Shown here piece after piece: positions 8,031 to 48,904 of a stretch of 64,000 bases of DNA; within the stretch, counting starts at the first letter, position 1; the number at the start of each line of letters is the position of its first letter. The notes under the pieces were generated by a model that was not told where the DNA came from, ran no database searches, and worked only from the letters and a program-made list of their open reading frames with translations. Source of the DNA: Hymenobacter jeollabukensis (lineage in GTDB: Bacteria; Bacteroidota; Bacteroidia; Cytophagales; Hymenobacteraceae); NCBI RefSeq assembly GCF_005771675.1, contig NZ_VAJM01000002.1:744001-808000 (forward strand), given 5' to 3'. The position numbers and the translations under genes were made by a program.

Positions 8031-8723
8031 TCAGGCCAGCTCCGGCTGAATGCGCACCGGGGCCACGTCGGCGGGGCGCTGGCCCTTGGCGAACTGGCGG
8101 CGGTAGCGGCGCACCCAGTAGATCATCAGCGGCACGCCGACCACGGTGGGCCAGAGGAAGCGCACGGCCATAGGCAGAAAGGTGAAGGAGGTGGCTGAAA
8201 AGGCCGACACAGCGGCGACGTAGGAGAGAATGAAACCGCGCATGTGGTCGAAAAACCAACGGTTCGGAGCGACTTCGGCCGGGCGGCGCAGCTTCTGCAG
8301 CTCGGCCACCGCCAGGCGCGTGCCGGCCAGCCCGAACACGCCCGACACGATGTTCTGCGTCAGCACGGCGTAGACGATGGTGCCCAGAAACACCAGCAGC
8401 GCCGCGCCCGCGCCCAGCCAGTCGTAGAAGGCCGGATTCTGGCCCCGGTTCAGGCGCTTTTGGTAGAGGGCGCGGTAGCCGAGCCAGGATAGGTAGAGCG
8501 AGAAGATGCCCGTCAGCAGCAGGAAGGTGAGGCCCTTGAACGTGGCCGCCACGATGGCCGTGACGCCGGCCGTGAGCATGGCCCAGAAAAACACGCGCCC
8601 CCAGAAGCGGTGGGCCGGGCCGCCCTTGCGCGTGGCCAGGGCCACCGGGGCCACGAAGAAGCCAATCATGCCGCAGCCGATGTGCAGCCAGCGGTTCAGG
8701 GTGAGAAACGTTTCGAGGGTCAT
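8031..8723 (-). CDS. DUF2306-like integral membrane protein
   Basis: A 230-residue protein with about seven hydrophobic helices. The N-terminal signature LNRWLHIGCGMIGFFVAPVA followed by TRKGGPAHRFWGRVFFWAM resembles DUF2306-type predicted membrane proteins, in which a conserved His sits in the first helix and a second in the RxHRxxGR loop. The role is unknown; bound heme or redox function has been speculated for related families, but nothing here proves it. The C-terminal tail is basic (RRYRRQFAKGQ) and probably cytoplasmic. It is a single gene on the minus strand, convergent with pyrD. Confidence 0.7.
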   Translation of the reverse strand: MTLETFLTLNRWLHIGCGMIGFFVAPVALATRKGGPAHRFWGRVFFWAMLTAGVTAIVAATFKGLTFLLLTGIFSLYLSWLGYRALYQKRLNRGQNPAFYDWLGAGAALLVFLGTIVYAVLTQNIVSGVFGLAGTRLAVAELQKLRRPAEVAPNRWFFDHMRGFILSYVAAVSAFSATSFTFLPMAVRFLWPTVVGVPLMIYWVRRYRRQFAKGQRPADVAPVRIQPELA

Positions 8724-12722: not shown

Positions 12723-14093
12723 TTAAGCCGGCTGCTGCATCATACGGGTGTAGTGCTGATAGAACAGCGGGATGGTTTCGATGCCCTTCATGAAGTTGAA
12801 CACGCCGTAGTGTTCGTTGGGCGAGTGAATGGCGTCCGAATCGAGGCCGAAGCCGAGCAGCACCGAATCCACGCCCAGCTCCGACTTGAACATGGCCACG
12901 ATGGGGATAGAGCCGCCGCCGCGCGTGGGAATGGGCTTTTTGCCGAAGGTGTCTTCCAAAGCCTGGGCGGCGGCTTTGTAGGCCACCGAGTCGGTGGGCG
13001 TTACCACCGGCTCGCCGCCGTGGTGGGGCTTCACCGTCACCGTCACGCCTTCGGGGGCAATGCTGGTGAAGTGCTTCTGGAACAGCTGGCTGATTTCCTC
13101 CGACGTCTGGTGCGGCACCAGGCGCATCGAGATTTTGGCGTAGGCCTTGGAGGCAATAACCGTCTTGGCGCCCTCGCCGGTGTAGCCGCCCCAGATGCCG
13201 TTCACGTCCAAAGTCGGGCGGATGCTGGTGCGCTCGATGGTGGTGTAGCCCTTCTCGCCGTAGGTGGCGGGCAGACCGATGCTCTGCTTGTACTCTTCCT
13301 CGCTGTAGGGCGCCTTGTTCAGCTCGGTGCGCTCCTCCGGGGTCAGCACGTCCACGTTGTCGTAGAAGCCGGGGATGGTGATGTGGCCGTTCTCGTCGTG
13401 CAGCGAGGCAATCATCTTGCACAGCGCGTTGATGGGGTTGTGCACGGCGCCGCCGTAGAGGCCGGAGTGCAGGTCGCGGTTGGGGCCGGTCACCTCCACC
13501 TCGTGGTAGCTCAGCCCGCGCAGGCCCACCTCGATGCTGGGCGTGTCGTTGGCAATGATGCCGGTGTCGGAGAGCAGCACCACGTCGGCCTTGAGCTTCT
13601 CCTTGTTGGCGTTGACGAAGAGGCCCAGGTTTTCGGAGCCCACTTCCTCTTCGCCCTCAATCATCACCTTCACGTTGCAGGGCACGCCGCCCTGCTGGTT
13701 GAGCACCTCGAAGGCCTTCACGTGCATGTACACCTGGCCCTTGTCGTCGCAGGCGCCGCGGGCGTAGATCTTGCCGTCCTTGATGACCGGGTCGAAAGGG
13801 CCGGAGGTCCACAGTTCGTAGGGGTCGGCGGGCTGCACGTCGTAGTGGCCGTACACAAGTACGGTGGGCAACTTGGGGTCGATGAGCTTCTCGCCGTAGA
13901 CGATGGGGTTGCCGGCCGTCTGGCACAGCTCCACGTTGTCGAGGCCGACCTCCTGGAGGCGCATCTTCAGGTACTCGGCGGCCTTGAGCACGTCGCCGTG
14001 GAACTTGGGGTCGGCGGAAACCGACGGGATGCGCAGCCACTCCAGCAGCTCGCTCAGGAAACGGTCCTGGTTTTCGGTCAGGAAAGAAGTCAT
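12723..14093 (-). CDS. M20-family dipeptidase
   Basis: A 456-residue zinc metallopeptidase of the carnosine dipeptidase-like branch of M20, hydrolysing dipeptides in the cytoplasm. Metal-site motifs are all present: VLVYGHYDVQP (His and Asp), ARGACDDKGQVYMHVKA (bridging Asp), EGEEEVGSENL (catalytic Glu plus ligand Glu), LLSDTG and, near the C-terminus, HSPNEHYGVFNF. The middle region (about 200-330) is the dimerisation lid, with SGLYGGAVHNPINAL. There is no signal peptide. It is a single gene; on its upstream side lie a weak -7-like TACCTTTA and then the 21-bp repeat array. Confidence 0.93.
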   Translation of the reverse strand: MTSFLTENQDRFLSELLEWLRIPSVSADPKFHGDVLKAAEYLKMRLQEVGLDNVELCQTAGNPIVYGEKLIDPKLPTVLVYGHYDVQPADPYELWTSGPFDPVIKDGKIYARGACDDKGQVYMHVKAFEVLNQQGGVPCNVKVMIEGEEEVGSENLGLFVNANKEKLKADVVLLSDTGIIANDTPSIEVGLRGLSYHEVEVTGPNRDLHSGLYGGAVHNPINALCKMIASLHDENGHITIPGFYDNVDVLTPEERTELNKAPYSEEEYKQSIGLPATYGEKGYTTIERTSIRPTLDVNGIWGGYTGEGAKTVIASKAYAKISMRLVPHQTSEEISQLFQKHFTSIAPEGVTVTVKPHHGGEPVVTPTDSVAYKAAAQALEDTFGKKPIPTRGGGSIPIVAMFKSELGVDSVLLGFGLDSDAIHSPNEHYGVFNFMKGIETIPLFYQHYTRMMQQPA

Positions 14094-14182
14094 CGGGTTG
14101 GGAAAAGGTGGTCGGGTTGACTAGGGCCGTAAAGGTAGCAGACGGGCCCGGATGCACCGAACGCCCGGCAATACCGCCCAAA

Positions 14183-14392
14183 GCTTCAGTCGCCCCGACC
14201 AAAACCGCCGCCGTGGCGTCTGAAGCGCCGTCAGCAGCAACCGAAGCTTCTATCGGCCCAACCGAAGCAGCCCCCGCCCCGACCGAAGGTCTTTCCGGCC
14301 CGTCCGAAGGTCCTCCCGCCACGACCGAAGACACTTCCGGCACATCCGAAGCTCTTTCCGGCACGACCGAAGCCGTTTCCGGAGATGCTTCT
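14183..14392. repeat. Tandem array of ten degenerate 21-bp units
   Basis: Units begin at 14183, 14204, 14225, 14246, 14267, 14288, 14309, 14330, 14351 and 14372, all exactly 21 bases with no insertions; the last is strongly diverged. The best conserved part is a TTTCCGGCACG core followed by ACCGAA at the end of each unit. Because 21 is a multiple of three, all six frames stay largely open and each yields a seven-residue repeat (for example ALSGTTE). It fills the gap between the dipeptidase start and the next minus-strand gene. The role is unknown. Confidence 0.85.
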
Positions 14393-14502
14393 GCCTCTTC
14401 GGGTGCGCTGGTGGGCAGTTCGGCCGGGGTGTCAAGGTTATCGGTAATGGATGGCGCCTTTCCCAGGAGCAGTGGCAGGCTATGCGGCAGGAATGGCAGC
14501 GC

Positions 14503-45684: not shown

Positions 45685-47619
45685 CTAGAACTCGTGCACC
45701 CGCTGGGCCGCGTTCCAGCGCAGGGCCAGTGAGGGGTACACGCCCGTGGTGCGGGTGCCGTCGGCCAGGGCGCTGCGGGCCACCAGCTTGGCGTCGAGCC
45801 AGAGGTTGGGGCGCGCCATCCAGGTGGCGGTGAAGTCGGCGAAGAGCTGCTCCACGCGCCGGCCCTGGGCCACCGTGTTGCCGTAGTCGTTGGGGTGGGG
45901 CACGTAGGGCCGCAGCACGTTGCCGCCGTAGTTGAGCAAAGTGGAAATGCCGTTGGTATCCGTTACCAGCACATCCTGCCCGTACACCGAGTAGAAGCCC
46001 TTGCCCACCAGCGTCAGGCGTGGCAGCGGCTGGTAGCTGAGCTGCCCAAACAGCTCCCACAGATTGGCCCCAATGGGGTGGGCCAGCGGCTGCCCGTAGT
46101 GCTCGTAGGCGCGGTACAGGTCCAGGTGCTGGTAGGTGTAGGGGCGGATGAAGTTGTATTCCACCTGCAAGTCCAGGTTCGACAGCCCGAACACGTCGAG
46201 GTACTTGCCGCCCACCTGGAAGGCCTGCTTGTTGGCCCACCAGCCCCGGCCCGAGCGCACCTGGCTCACCACCAGCTCATCCAGCACCACCTGCCCGTAG
46301 AGCTGGGCCCGGCGCTTGATGTTCCACTTGAAGTCGGCCCCCAGGATGGCGTTGTCGTTCGAGCCCACGGCCTGCTCCACGCTGCGGTAGAAGATGATGG
46401 GGTTCAGGTACTGCAGCTCAAAGCGCCCCTTGCCGCGCCCAAACATGGTCGACTCGAACAGCCCCACGTTCAGCCCCGGCGTGATGTCGTAGCTCAAATG
46501 GTGCAGGGCCATGTACTTCTTCTGAAACACCGTGTCGATGTTGCCGCCCGTGCCCCGGTCGCGGGTGCGCTCGGTGGTCAGCTCCGCGAAAAGGTTCTGG
46601 TAGTTCAGCTTCCACACCCGCGTGTTCAGCTTCAGGAAGAAGTACGGCGCCGCGTAGTCCGAGAGAATCAGCGAGCGGTAGCCGTTGCCGATGACGTTCC
46701 GGTCGTGGCCCAGCTGCACGTTGATGTGGCGCGTGGCCGCGTAGGTGACGTAGCCCCGCGCCGTCAGAAAGTCAAACTGGTTCTGCTGGTTCTTGAACAG
46801 CTTCCAGTAGCCCTCGTGCGGCACCGCGTTGTCGCGCCGCACGCGCCCGGCCACGTACTCCGGCACCCGCATCTGCGTGTCGGTGAAGTAGGTATAGAAG
46901 CCCAGCCGCTTATCAATCGTGCCCTCAATCTGCGCCCCGCGGGTGTTGGTGTAGAGGAAGCCATCCGAGCCCGAGCCCACCTGCAGGTTCAGTACCGGGT
47001 TCACGCGCAACTGAAAGTCGGGCGTATTGACGCTGTAGAGGTCGGTGCTGGTGCGGTAGAAATGCTTCAGGATAGGCCGCCGGCTCTGGTTGATCGGCTG
47101 CAGGTTGGCCGGCAGCGTCTGCCAGTTGTCGCTCAGCAAGTATTCGGCGTTGAACGCGTCCACCCCCGAGAGGGTCGTGACGTTCACCCGATTCGGGCCC
47201 AGCACGATGTTGTCATCGGTCACCGGCGCTACCATTCCCGCGCGCAGCAGGCGCCGCCCCAGCCGCCCCACCGCCGCCCGGTTGTACGGCCGCGTCGAGG
47301 TGTGAATGTCGCCCACCGAGTCCGGCCCGTACTTGATGGCGTAGCGGTCAATCAGCCGGTACACGTCCTGGTCCAGCGGCACGTACACCGGCGCCTGCAG
47401 CGGCGCTTTCGCATCCGTCACGTCGATGCGGGCCGGAGCCGGCGCGGGCGGCACCGTGACGACGGGCGCCGGCACCGGGGCCGGAGTGGGCGCCGCCACC
47501 GGCAGCGTAGCGGGCTGAATGGTAGTCGTGCGGGTGGTATCCGTCACCTGCGCCAGCAGGGGCGAGGCGGCGCCGGTCAGCAGCAGGCCGAAGCCCAGCT
47601 GGGGAAAAAGTCGTTTCAT
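45685..47619 (-). CDS. Wzi/RemB-like outer-membrane beta-barrel protein
   Basis: A 644-residue outer-membrane protein with signal peptide MKRLFPQLGFGLLLTGAASPLLA (start at ATG 47617-47619), followed by a Pro/Ala-rich linker of about 50 residues. The rest is a long series of amphipathic strands such as LQLRVNPVLNLQVGSG, RGYVTYAATRHINVQLGHDRN, LQYLNPIIFYRSVEQAVGS and GADFKWNIKRRAQLYGQVVLDEL. This resembles the capsule-assembly Wzi group and the related RemB of gliding flavobacteria. The assignment comes from strand pattern and recollection of the group and has moderate certainty. Upstream of the start lies the second 21-bp array. Confidence 0.6.
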   Translation of the reverse strand: MKRLFPQLGFGLLLTGAASPLLAQVTDTTRTTTIQPATLPVAAPTPAPVPAPVVTVPPAPAPARIDVTDAKAPLQAPVYVPLDQDVYRLIDRYAIKYGPDSVGDIHTSTRPYNRAAVGRLGRRLLRAGMVAPVTDDNIVLGPNRVNVTTLSGVDAFNAEYLLSDNWQTLPANLQPINQSRRPILKHFYRTSTDLYSVNTPDFQLRVNPVLNLQVGSGSDGFLYTNTRGAQIEGTIDKRLGFYTYFTDTQMRVPEYVAGRVRRDNAVPHEGYWKLFKNQQNQFDFLTARGYVTYAATRHINVQLGHDRNVIGNGYRSLILSDYAAPYFFLKLNTRVWKLNYQNLFAELTTERTRDRGTGGNIDTVFQKKYMALHHLSYDITPGLNVGLFESTMFGRGKGRFELQYLNPIIFYRSVEQAVGSNDNAILGADFKWNIKRRAQLYGQVVLDELVVSQVRSGRGWWANKQAFQVGGKYLDVFGLSNLDLQVEYNFIRPYTYQHLDLYRAYEHYGQPLAHPIGANLWELFGQLSYQPLPRLTLVGKGFYSVYGQDVLVTDTNGISTLLNYGGNVLRPYVPHPNDYGNTVAQGRRVEQLFADFTATWMARPNLWLDAKLVARSALADGTRTTGVYPSLALRWNAAQRVHEF

Positions 47620-47780
47620 AAAGCAGCACATGGGCCGCCTGCATACGCAAGCCGCCCCGGCGAAGCTACACTTCCCGCCCGAAACACCTCCGGCCCGCCC
47701 CGAAATGCCCCCGCCCCGGCCCGATCTGCTTGCAGTACATCTGATAGGTTGCGCATCGTGCCCGCCCAAATTCCCGCAGC

Positions 47781-48032
47781 TTCGAGAGGCGCTCAACTAT
47801 TTTCGACACGCTTCCGACTGCCTTCGACACGCTTCCTGCCGCCTTCGACACGCTTCCTGCCGCCTTCGACAAGCTCCCAACTCCTTTCGATACGCTTCCG
47901 ACCGCTTTCGACAAGCCCCCAACCGCTTTCGATACGCTTTCTACCGCTTTCGACAGCGCTGCTGCCGCTTCCGACCCATTTTCTACCGCTTCCGACAACG
48001 TTTTGACTGCTTTCGACCAACGTCTGGCCTGA
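47781..48032. repeat. Tandem array of twelve 21-bp units
   Basis: Units start at 47781 and every 21 bases to 48012 without any gap or insertion. Most begin TTCGACACG or TTCGATACG and end GACCGCT or TACCGCT; two neighbouring units (47823 and 47844) are identical. The array sits in the divergent intergenic region between the Wzi/RemB-like gene and the hydrolase gene, ending about 60 bases before the hydrolase promoter box. All reading frames remain largely open and give seven-residue repeats, but none has a believable start. Confidence 0.9.
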
Positions 48033-48095
48033 GCGGGAAGCGTGGCTGCTGCTGCCGCCGCCCCGTCCGAAGCAGCCCAACCCGCCTGCGCCGCG

Positions 48096-48103
48096 TAGAT
48101 TTG
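48096..48103 (+). promoter_or_regulatory. -7 box upstream of the hydrolase gene
   Basis: TAGATTTG, an exact TAnnTTTG match, 36 bases before the ATG and about 60 bases after the 21-bp array. Confidence 0.45.
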
Positions 48104-48139
48104 CCTACCCCGCACGTCTTGCCCTTTTCGCCCGCTGCC

Positions 48140-48904
48140 ATGAGCACCGCCCAACCGACCATCGTACTGCTGCACGGTTTCGCCGAAAGCCGCGAAGTCT
48201 GGACCACCTTCACCCGCGACTTCCCCGACGACTACCGCCTCGTCACGCCCAACCTGCTCGGCTTCGGCACCAACGTGCACGACGTGCGCGACTTCTCCAT
48301 GGAAGCCCAGGCCCGCTACCTGGCCGAGTACCTGCGCCAGCGCGGCGTCGAGCGGGCCGTGTTCGTGTGCCACAGCATGGGCGGCTACGTGGCCCTGGCC
48401 TTCGCCGAGCGCTACCCCAGCATGGTGGCCGGCCTCAGCCTCTTCCACAGCACCGCCCTGCCCGACACCGAGGAGCGCAAAGCCAACCGCGACAAAAACA
48501 TCGACTTCATCCAGCGCCACGGCGTCGAGAAGTTCATGGACTCGTTCGTGCGCCCCCTCTTCGCCCCCGCCAACCGCGAAAAGCTGGTCGATGAGCGCTG
48601 CTTCCTCGAAGAAATCGGCAAAGCCACCCCCCCGGACAGCATCATCGGCGCCCTCAAGGCCATGAAGCAGCGCCCCGACCGCACCGAGGTGCTGCGCAAA
48701 GCCCGCTTTCCCGTGCAGTTCATCATCGGCAAAGACGACGTGGCCGTCACCGTCGAGAGCCTGCTGCCCCAGCTCACCCTGCCCGCCGAAAGCCACGTGC
48801 TCATCCTCGACGGCGTGGGCCACGTCGGCTACTTCGAGCAGCCCGAAGTAACGCGCCGCGCCGTCCTCGATTTCGCCGGCCGCGTGTTTGGCCGCGAGGA
48901 GTAA
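48140..48904 (+). CDS. Alpha/beta-fold hydrolase
   Basis: A 254-residue cytoplasmic hydrolase. The oxyanion region VLLHGFAESREVW, the nucleophile elbow FVCHSMGGYVALAFAERYP (Ser79), the acid in FIIGKDDVAV (Asp199 or Asp200) and the His in GVGHVGYFEQP (His228) make a full catalytic triad. The lid region (about 110-165) is helical. Substrate prediction is not possible from sequence; esters or lactones are likely for this broad family. The start at 48140 was chosen because the longer frame upstream only runs through the 21-bp repeats. Confidence 0.9.
   Translation: MSTAQPTIVLLHGFAESREVWTTFTRDFPDDYRLVTPNLLGFGTNVHDVRDFSMEAQARYLAEYLRQRGVERAVFVCHSMGGYVALAFAERYPSMVAGLSLFHSTALPDTEERKANRDKNIDFIQRHGVEKFMDSFVRPLFAPANREKLVDERCFLEEIGKATPPDSIIGALKAMKQRPDRTEVLRKARFPVQFIIGKDDVAVTVESLLPQLTLPAESHVLILDGVGHVGYFEQPEVTRRAVLDFAGRVFGREE

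Follow-up and report, generated by a model that had tools for sequence, protein, structure and literature searches.

Intergenic arrays with a 21- or 42-bp period in Hymenobacter jeollabukensis are a class defined by spacing and not by sequence

A twelve-unit array of 21-bp repeats between two divergent genes of Hymenobacter jeollabukensis is one of 32 intergenic arrays, each with a period of 21 or 42 bp or a multiple thereof, that were found in 2.46 Mb of this genome. An earlier note, made from the letters of the window alone (the window being the whole 64,000-nucleotide stretch that was analyzed), had suspected a genome-wide feature, and the survey substantiates that suspicion. The class is defined by spacing and not by sequence. 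We tentatively read the focal array as one member of a helically phased intergenic class carrying protein sites, one per two turns, an interpretation that we regard as plausible without holding it to be probable.

Results

The focal array and its surroundings

The features of the focal locus, and the second array of the window, are as follows.

45685..47619, minus strand: flanking gene for a 644-aa protein with a signal-like N terminus (start at 47619)
47674..47724, no strand: short second run of ~2.5 units of 21 bp, found by TRF, adjoining the upstream region of the 644-aa gene
47782..48033, no strand: focal array, twelve 21-bp units between divergent genes
47824..47865, no strand: identical adjacent pair of 21-bp units in the focal array (47824 and 47845, both TCGACACGCTTCCTGCCGCCT)
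48096..48103, plus strand: TAGATTTG box between the array and the hydrolase gene, a match to TANNTTTG, which we take to be the Bacteroidota -7 promoter consensus
48140..48904, plus strand: flanking gene for an alpha/beta hydrolase (PF00561, PF12697)
14148..14399, no strand: second array, with 21-bp units of about the form CGACCGAAGC, 5′ of a gene for an M20 peptidase

When positions 47782–48033 are set out in 21-bp lines, the twelve units are without a single spacing error, in keeping with the unbroken spacing given in the earlier note. The outermost two units are degenerate. Eleven cores can be scored clearly, and each of the ten steps separating them measures exactly 21 bp. Identity at a lag of 21 bp is 0.70, compared with a mean of 0.28 and a maximum of 0.38 for dinucleotide shuffles (n = 2000), and TRF independently recovers the array (47801–47997, period 21, score 182), and also recovers it as an 84-bp higher-order repeat. 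On the plus strand, each unit consists of a conserved block, about ACCGCTTTCGACA, followed by a variable spacer of ~8 bp; read on the minus strand, the unit is about GTGTCGAAAGCGGTNGNAAGC. The two identical neighboring units that the earlier note had singled out are indeed present at 47824 and 47845 and reflect recent duplication or homogenization. A DNA search for the focal unit through the genus and family returned two places only, both in this genome; thus, the unit sequence is not the conserved property. A CRISPR array was rejected as an identity for the locus, as the units are head-to-tail at 21 bp, imperfect throughout, and without longer spacers. The focal array also contains a 10.5-bp sub-repeat (identity 0.41 and 0.37 at lags 10 and 11), which was discarded as a trait common to the class, being absent from most arrays; AT content likewise has no 10.5-bp excess.

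The 644-aa protein is conserved across Hymenobacter and in 41 Hymenobacteraceae loci, matched no Pfam family, and is probably an outer-membrane protein. Sigma-70-type promoters and terminator-like sites were sought at the focal locus and none was found; the TAGATTTG box is a consensus match only, with three occurrences found against 0.67 expected by chance in 3.25 kb. A stretch between the focal array and the 644-aa protein gene is conserved in several Hymenobacter, and the H. edaphi array at the focal locus (L023, 9702–9956) is made of similar GTTTCGGGC units that extend to the place matching 47674–47724. These H. edaphi units resemble the conserved stretch immediately 5′ of the 644-aa protein gene, as though the array had expanded out of it.

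The second array of the window, which had been reported at 14183 with a different unit sequence, does differ in its units and sits between same-strand genes, unlike the divergent focal array. Elsewhere in the window, two perfect 21-bp copies of ATTTACTACCGATAACGCGGG lie outside called genes at 2886–2927, perhaps an array in its first step.

Arrays across the genome

The survey covered 2.464 Mb of the 6.18-Mb genome (40%), window included, and tested all lags between 9 and 99 bp, using 84-bp windows and a 60% identity threshold, with genes taken from a simple hexamer caller. Periods of 21, 42, 63, or 84 bp account for 33 of the 47 non-coding repeat matches (7, 19, 2, and 5, respectively); the remainder comprise seven 7-bp microsatellites (detected at lag 14) and otherwise single cases. 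In the same scan, coding repeats have periods scattered over multiples of 3, without an excess at 21. Merging yielded 32 arrays outside genes, apart from stop codons overlapped by a few bases, with a narrow length distribution (mean 254 bp, s.d. 56). The count over the genome that the earlier note had called for therefore comes, by extrapolation from 40%, to about 80 arrays. TRF, which tolerates indels, agrees: its non-coding consensus sizes are 21 (7), 42 (7), 63 (5), and 84 (1), with near misses at 19, 20, 40, 41, and 62 and few other sizes. Periods of 21 and 42 bp are integer multiples of the 10.5-bp turn, and periods of 31 and 32 bp are absent.

Placement in a divergent promoter region holds for the focal array and fails as a rule for the class, in which 9 arrays lie between divergent, 20 between tandem, and 3 between convergent genes. 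Start codons have an array within 30 bp in 1 of 38 cases, compared with 9 of 26 for stop codons (p = 0.0008).

Some runs depart from the prevailing periods. Repeats with a period of 20 or 41 bp are present in relatives as well as in this genome: four 20-bp units (CGGTTGGGCGTG...) directly adjoin a 21-bp array in L095 at ~12805–12910 (G000 C1 292805), and 41-bp-period arrays (21 + 20) occur in L023 and L035. Two adjacent arrays of 40–41 bp, recovered by TRF only, are built around the palindrome CCGCCTAGGCGG at ~443037–443308 of G000 C22. The seven microsatellites are near-perfect, of GTCAGTT, AGGAGTT, and TCATTGC types, and lie between or at the ends of genes, for example at 8412–8563 and 15676–15846 of L083, ~101035 of G000 C12, and ~60775 of C21.

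The earlier note had allowed that such arrays might turn up by chance at similar frequency in shuffled or unrelated high-GC DNA; this is not what the controls gave. Order-4 Markov sequence (1.26 Mb) contained zero arrays, and in alphaproteobacterial replicons (400 kb, 62% GC) non-coding arrays were absent at every period. No non-coding 21-bp array was present in 100 kb from each of three other genera of the family and one congener. Distant Bacteroidetes MAGs (294 kb) contained, beside 7-bp arrays, four non-coding ones whose period is a multiple of 21 bp, located in L071 (42-bp, palindromic), L073, L075, and, weakly, L074; from this small sample, the pattern may reach beyond Hymenobacter.

Unit architecture and families

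Column conservation around the 21-bp ring is contiguous (lag-1 z 4.7, lag-2 z 3.5, lags 5–7 negative), indicating one core and one variable spacer per unit, and 201 of the 211 steps of 15–27 bp inside arrays are exactly 21 bp. Direct 21-bp similarity is clear in 23 arrays, the focal array among them. In another nine, which have a period of 42 or 84 bp, it is at or close to background, and of these nine, seven or eight are dyad-symmetric, as are several of the other arrays. The most symmetric arrays have folds well below those of shuffled sequence whichever strand is taken (z about −4 to −13), which is not so for most direct 21-bp arrays. Period-42 arrays that consist of strong palindromes include the following.

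C22_1 213362, C1_1 655167, C12_1 569718, C12_1 413437, C21_1 211790: palindromic units of period 42, e.g. AGTGTTCCACAAACTGGAACACT, which has perfect 9-bp arms

These may form hairpins or cruciforms on either strand.

Unit sequences vary from locus to locus. The comparison of unit families proposed in the earlier note shows, in addition, that certain families are found again at unlinked loci whose flanks are not shared.

GTGTCGAAAGC: focal array, L002, L035
CAAAACACCTCC: L087, L120
CCAAACCTTCG: L106, L128
Recurring unit pair: L119 and L137

A mobile element with shared flanks was rejected, as the likeness is limited to the units, the exception being a likeness in the last units of L002, L035, and the focal array. 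In this GTGTCG family, the last units at 1688–1715 of L002, 9884–9910 of L035, and 47775–47804 of the window (minus strand) are alike, and GTGTCGnAAATTATTrGCG occurs in two of the three; two of these arrays belong to different species and sit at unlinked loci. A fixed strand orientation relative to genes, which a Rho site or leader would need, was likewise set aside, one unit family having been found both ways by inspection.

Evolution between species

The host is close to H. edaphi. The focal locus has arrays of other units in H. edaphi and H. gummosus and a degenerate array in sp. 15J16-1T3B, and has none in CRA2 and Solirubrum; at other loci in the same species, arrays are kept, changed, or absent. 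Arrays recur at orthologous places with changed units. The alignment of the acsA arrays spans 349 bp in this genome and 328 bp in H. edaphi and contains 25 mismatches and a single gap, of exactly 21 bp, a one-unit difference that fits the recent duplication proposed for the focal pair. Unit number also differs between relatives in the rlmI arrays.

Compared with H. edaphi, the arrays have accumulated 112 substitutions and 2 indel events, one of 21 bp and one of 19 bp, the latter probably a 21 that was split, against 622 substitutions and 80 indel events, mostly of 1–2 bp, in ordinary intergenic DNA. For 112 substitutions, ~14 small indels are expected in the arrays and almost none is seen; with the rlmI array left out, as its units are perhaps aligned out of order, 53 substitutions remain, for which ~7 would be expected. 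These counts come from five arrays, mainly two, and are biased in that the arrays were found partly via their regular spacing. Because interspecies array indels are few and 201 of 211 steps are exact, it is likely, on statistical grounds and from few arrays, that phase-breaking indels have been lost from arrays. We infer that selection is the cause of their rarity.

Discussion

A proposed binding platform and its alternatives

The exclusive periods of 21 and 42 bp and the rarity of small indels point to helical phase as the cause of the spacing, and the site-like units and avoidance of the start-codon region suggest a binding platform; the arrays have the appearance of a protein-bearing DNA scaffold of a kind not yet described. 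Each would hold roughly 6 to 15 copies of a ~10-bp element with a variable spacer, so that successive elements, two turns apart, lie on one side of the helix, at 21 bp in the direct form and 42 bp in the dyad-symmetric form. Slippage or unequal exchange would add, remove, and homogenize whole units, so that the units of one locus change in concert and those of separate loci or species diverge, and small indels that break the phase would be removed by selection. Many copies of a DNA-binding protein could then align on one face of the array, and the aligned protein would bend, wrap, bridge, or insulate DNA beside core promoters. Against such a platform, the units are too different between loci for any single sequence-specific protein to read them all, some species have no array at the same locus without obvious loss, orientation to genes is mixed, with three arrays between convergent genes, and some runs have a period of 20 or 41 bp. 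A bolder form of the platform reading, which we consider possible and rather doubtful, holds that the arrays are an undescribed, locus-specific class of Bacteroidota chromosome element, conserved in spacing (21/42 bp) and not in sequence, on which one-faced filaments or wrapped particles organize or insulate intergenic DNA.

Neutral minisatellites are a serious contender that we nevertheless tend to doubt: a mutational process would make and expand 21- and 42-bp duplications in intergenic DNA, and homogenization alone would hold the period of functionless arrays. Fast turnover, whole-unit changes in copy number, presence or absence between species, and homogenized centers with decayed edges all agree with this; heptamer microsatellites in the same genome demonstrate that slippage arrays do form, and shared unit ancestry could account for the recurring families. 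However, neutral 21-bp arrays would also be expected in coding DNA, which tolerates multiples of 3 and yet has no 21-bp peak; a neutral origin is conceivable given some process that makes 21-bp duplications only outside genes. Homogenization should moreover spread indel variants as readily as substitutions, so a drifting period is expected where small indels are in fact rare, and the contiguous core/spacer pattern is not expected at all. Two further readings fare worse. An RNA-level element, in which transcribed arrays fold into rows of hairpins for termination, processing, or protein binding, is suggested by the strong folding of the dyad-symmetric subclass, mostly of period 42, on both strands, but it is improbable given that the focal array (z −1.3 and +1.1), like most direct 21-bp arrays, does not fold, that Rfam covariance models gave no match at 47000–48500 with E up to 1, and that the locus lacks a terminator-like site. 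It is more improbable still that the arrays encode small coiled-coil proteins of 7-residue repeats. Open frames do exist (one, on the minus strand, reads VSKAVGS and spaces its hydrophobic residues 3 and 4 apart), the 21-bp unit length is divisible by 3, and indels are as rare in arrays as in genes; yet there is no codon-phase signal over the 32 arrays (Fisher combined p 0.87), the acsA-array mismatches divide 9/8/8 across the three phases, some arrays are interrupted by stops in every one of the six frames, and an early unit of the sister array L002 contains an in-frame stop.

If spacing and not sequence is selected at ~80 sites per genome, the arrays would amount to an extensive layer of DNA, regulatory or chromosome-structuring, that annotation has missed and that is invisible to motif searches. 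They also provide a natural series on how phased binding sites arise, homogenize, and decay.

Comparison with known systems

A search of the open-access literature found no earlier description of such arrays. The nearest known geometry is that of LytTR-type operators (AgrA, RcoM, CoxC), in which cores of 8–9 bp with 10–13 bp spacers recur at intervals of 18–21 bp upstream of promoters (PMC11347149). The arrays resemble them in having short cores of ~9 bp at two-turn spacing, with one core and spacer per 21 bp. They differ in extent, the operators having two or three repeats with a defined consensus and the arrays typically ~12 units over an average of 254 bp, and in possessing a dyad-symmetric 42-bp subclass that the operators lack. 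We know of no operators of about twelve LytTR sites. The genome encodes 19 LytTR domains; one of the 19 genes (C21:211416) adjoins an array, that at 211790, which by estimate is about chance, and one LytTR regulator could not read all array units.

RemA sites of Bacillus are also poorly conserved, periodic, and upstream of promoters, with DNA proposed to wrap round a ring (PMC8481266); unlike the 21/42-bp arrays, they consist of AT-rich 7-bp protections with 3-bp gaps. RemA itself was rejected as the array binder, PF04025 being absent from the whole genome. The nearest described feature is the TAACTGA heptamer, whose direct repeats are likewise intergenic, tandem, and present in many copies per genome, including some Bacteroidetes, and often lie at the start codon (PMC4679880). 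That repeat has one fixed 7-bp sequence, whereas the arrays have a locus-variable sequence, a 21/42-bp period, and a tendency to avoid start codons; heptamer arrays in this genome form a set separate from the 21-bp arrays. The GTCAGTT microsatellites resemble the TAACTGA heptamers (PMC4679880), and similar CAGTTAT arrays occur in the Bacteroidetes MAGs L065 and L079.

With ordinary bacterial minisatellites and VNTRs, the arrays share homogenization within a locus and copy-number change by whole units, as seen between relatives at acsA and rlmI. Ordinary minisatellites, however, have mixed periods within one genome, whereas nearly all non-coding ones here are at 21 bp or a multiple of it, and small indels in them are rare.
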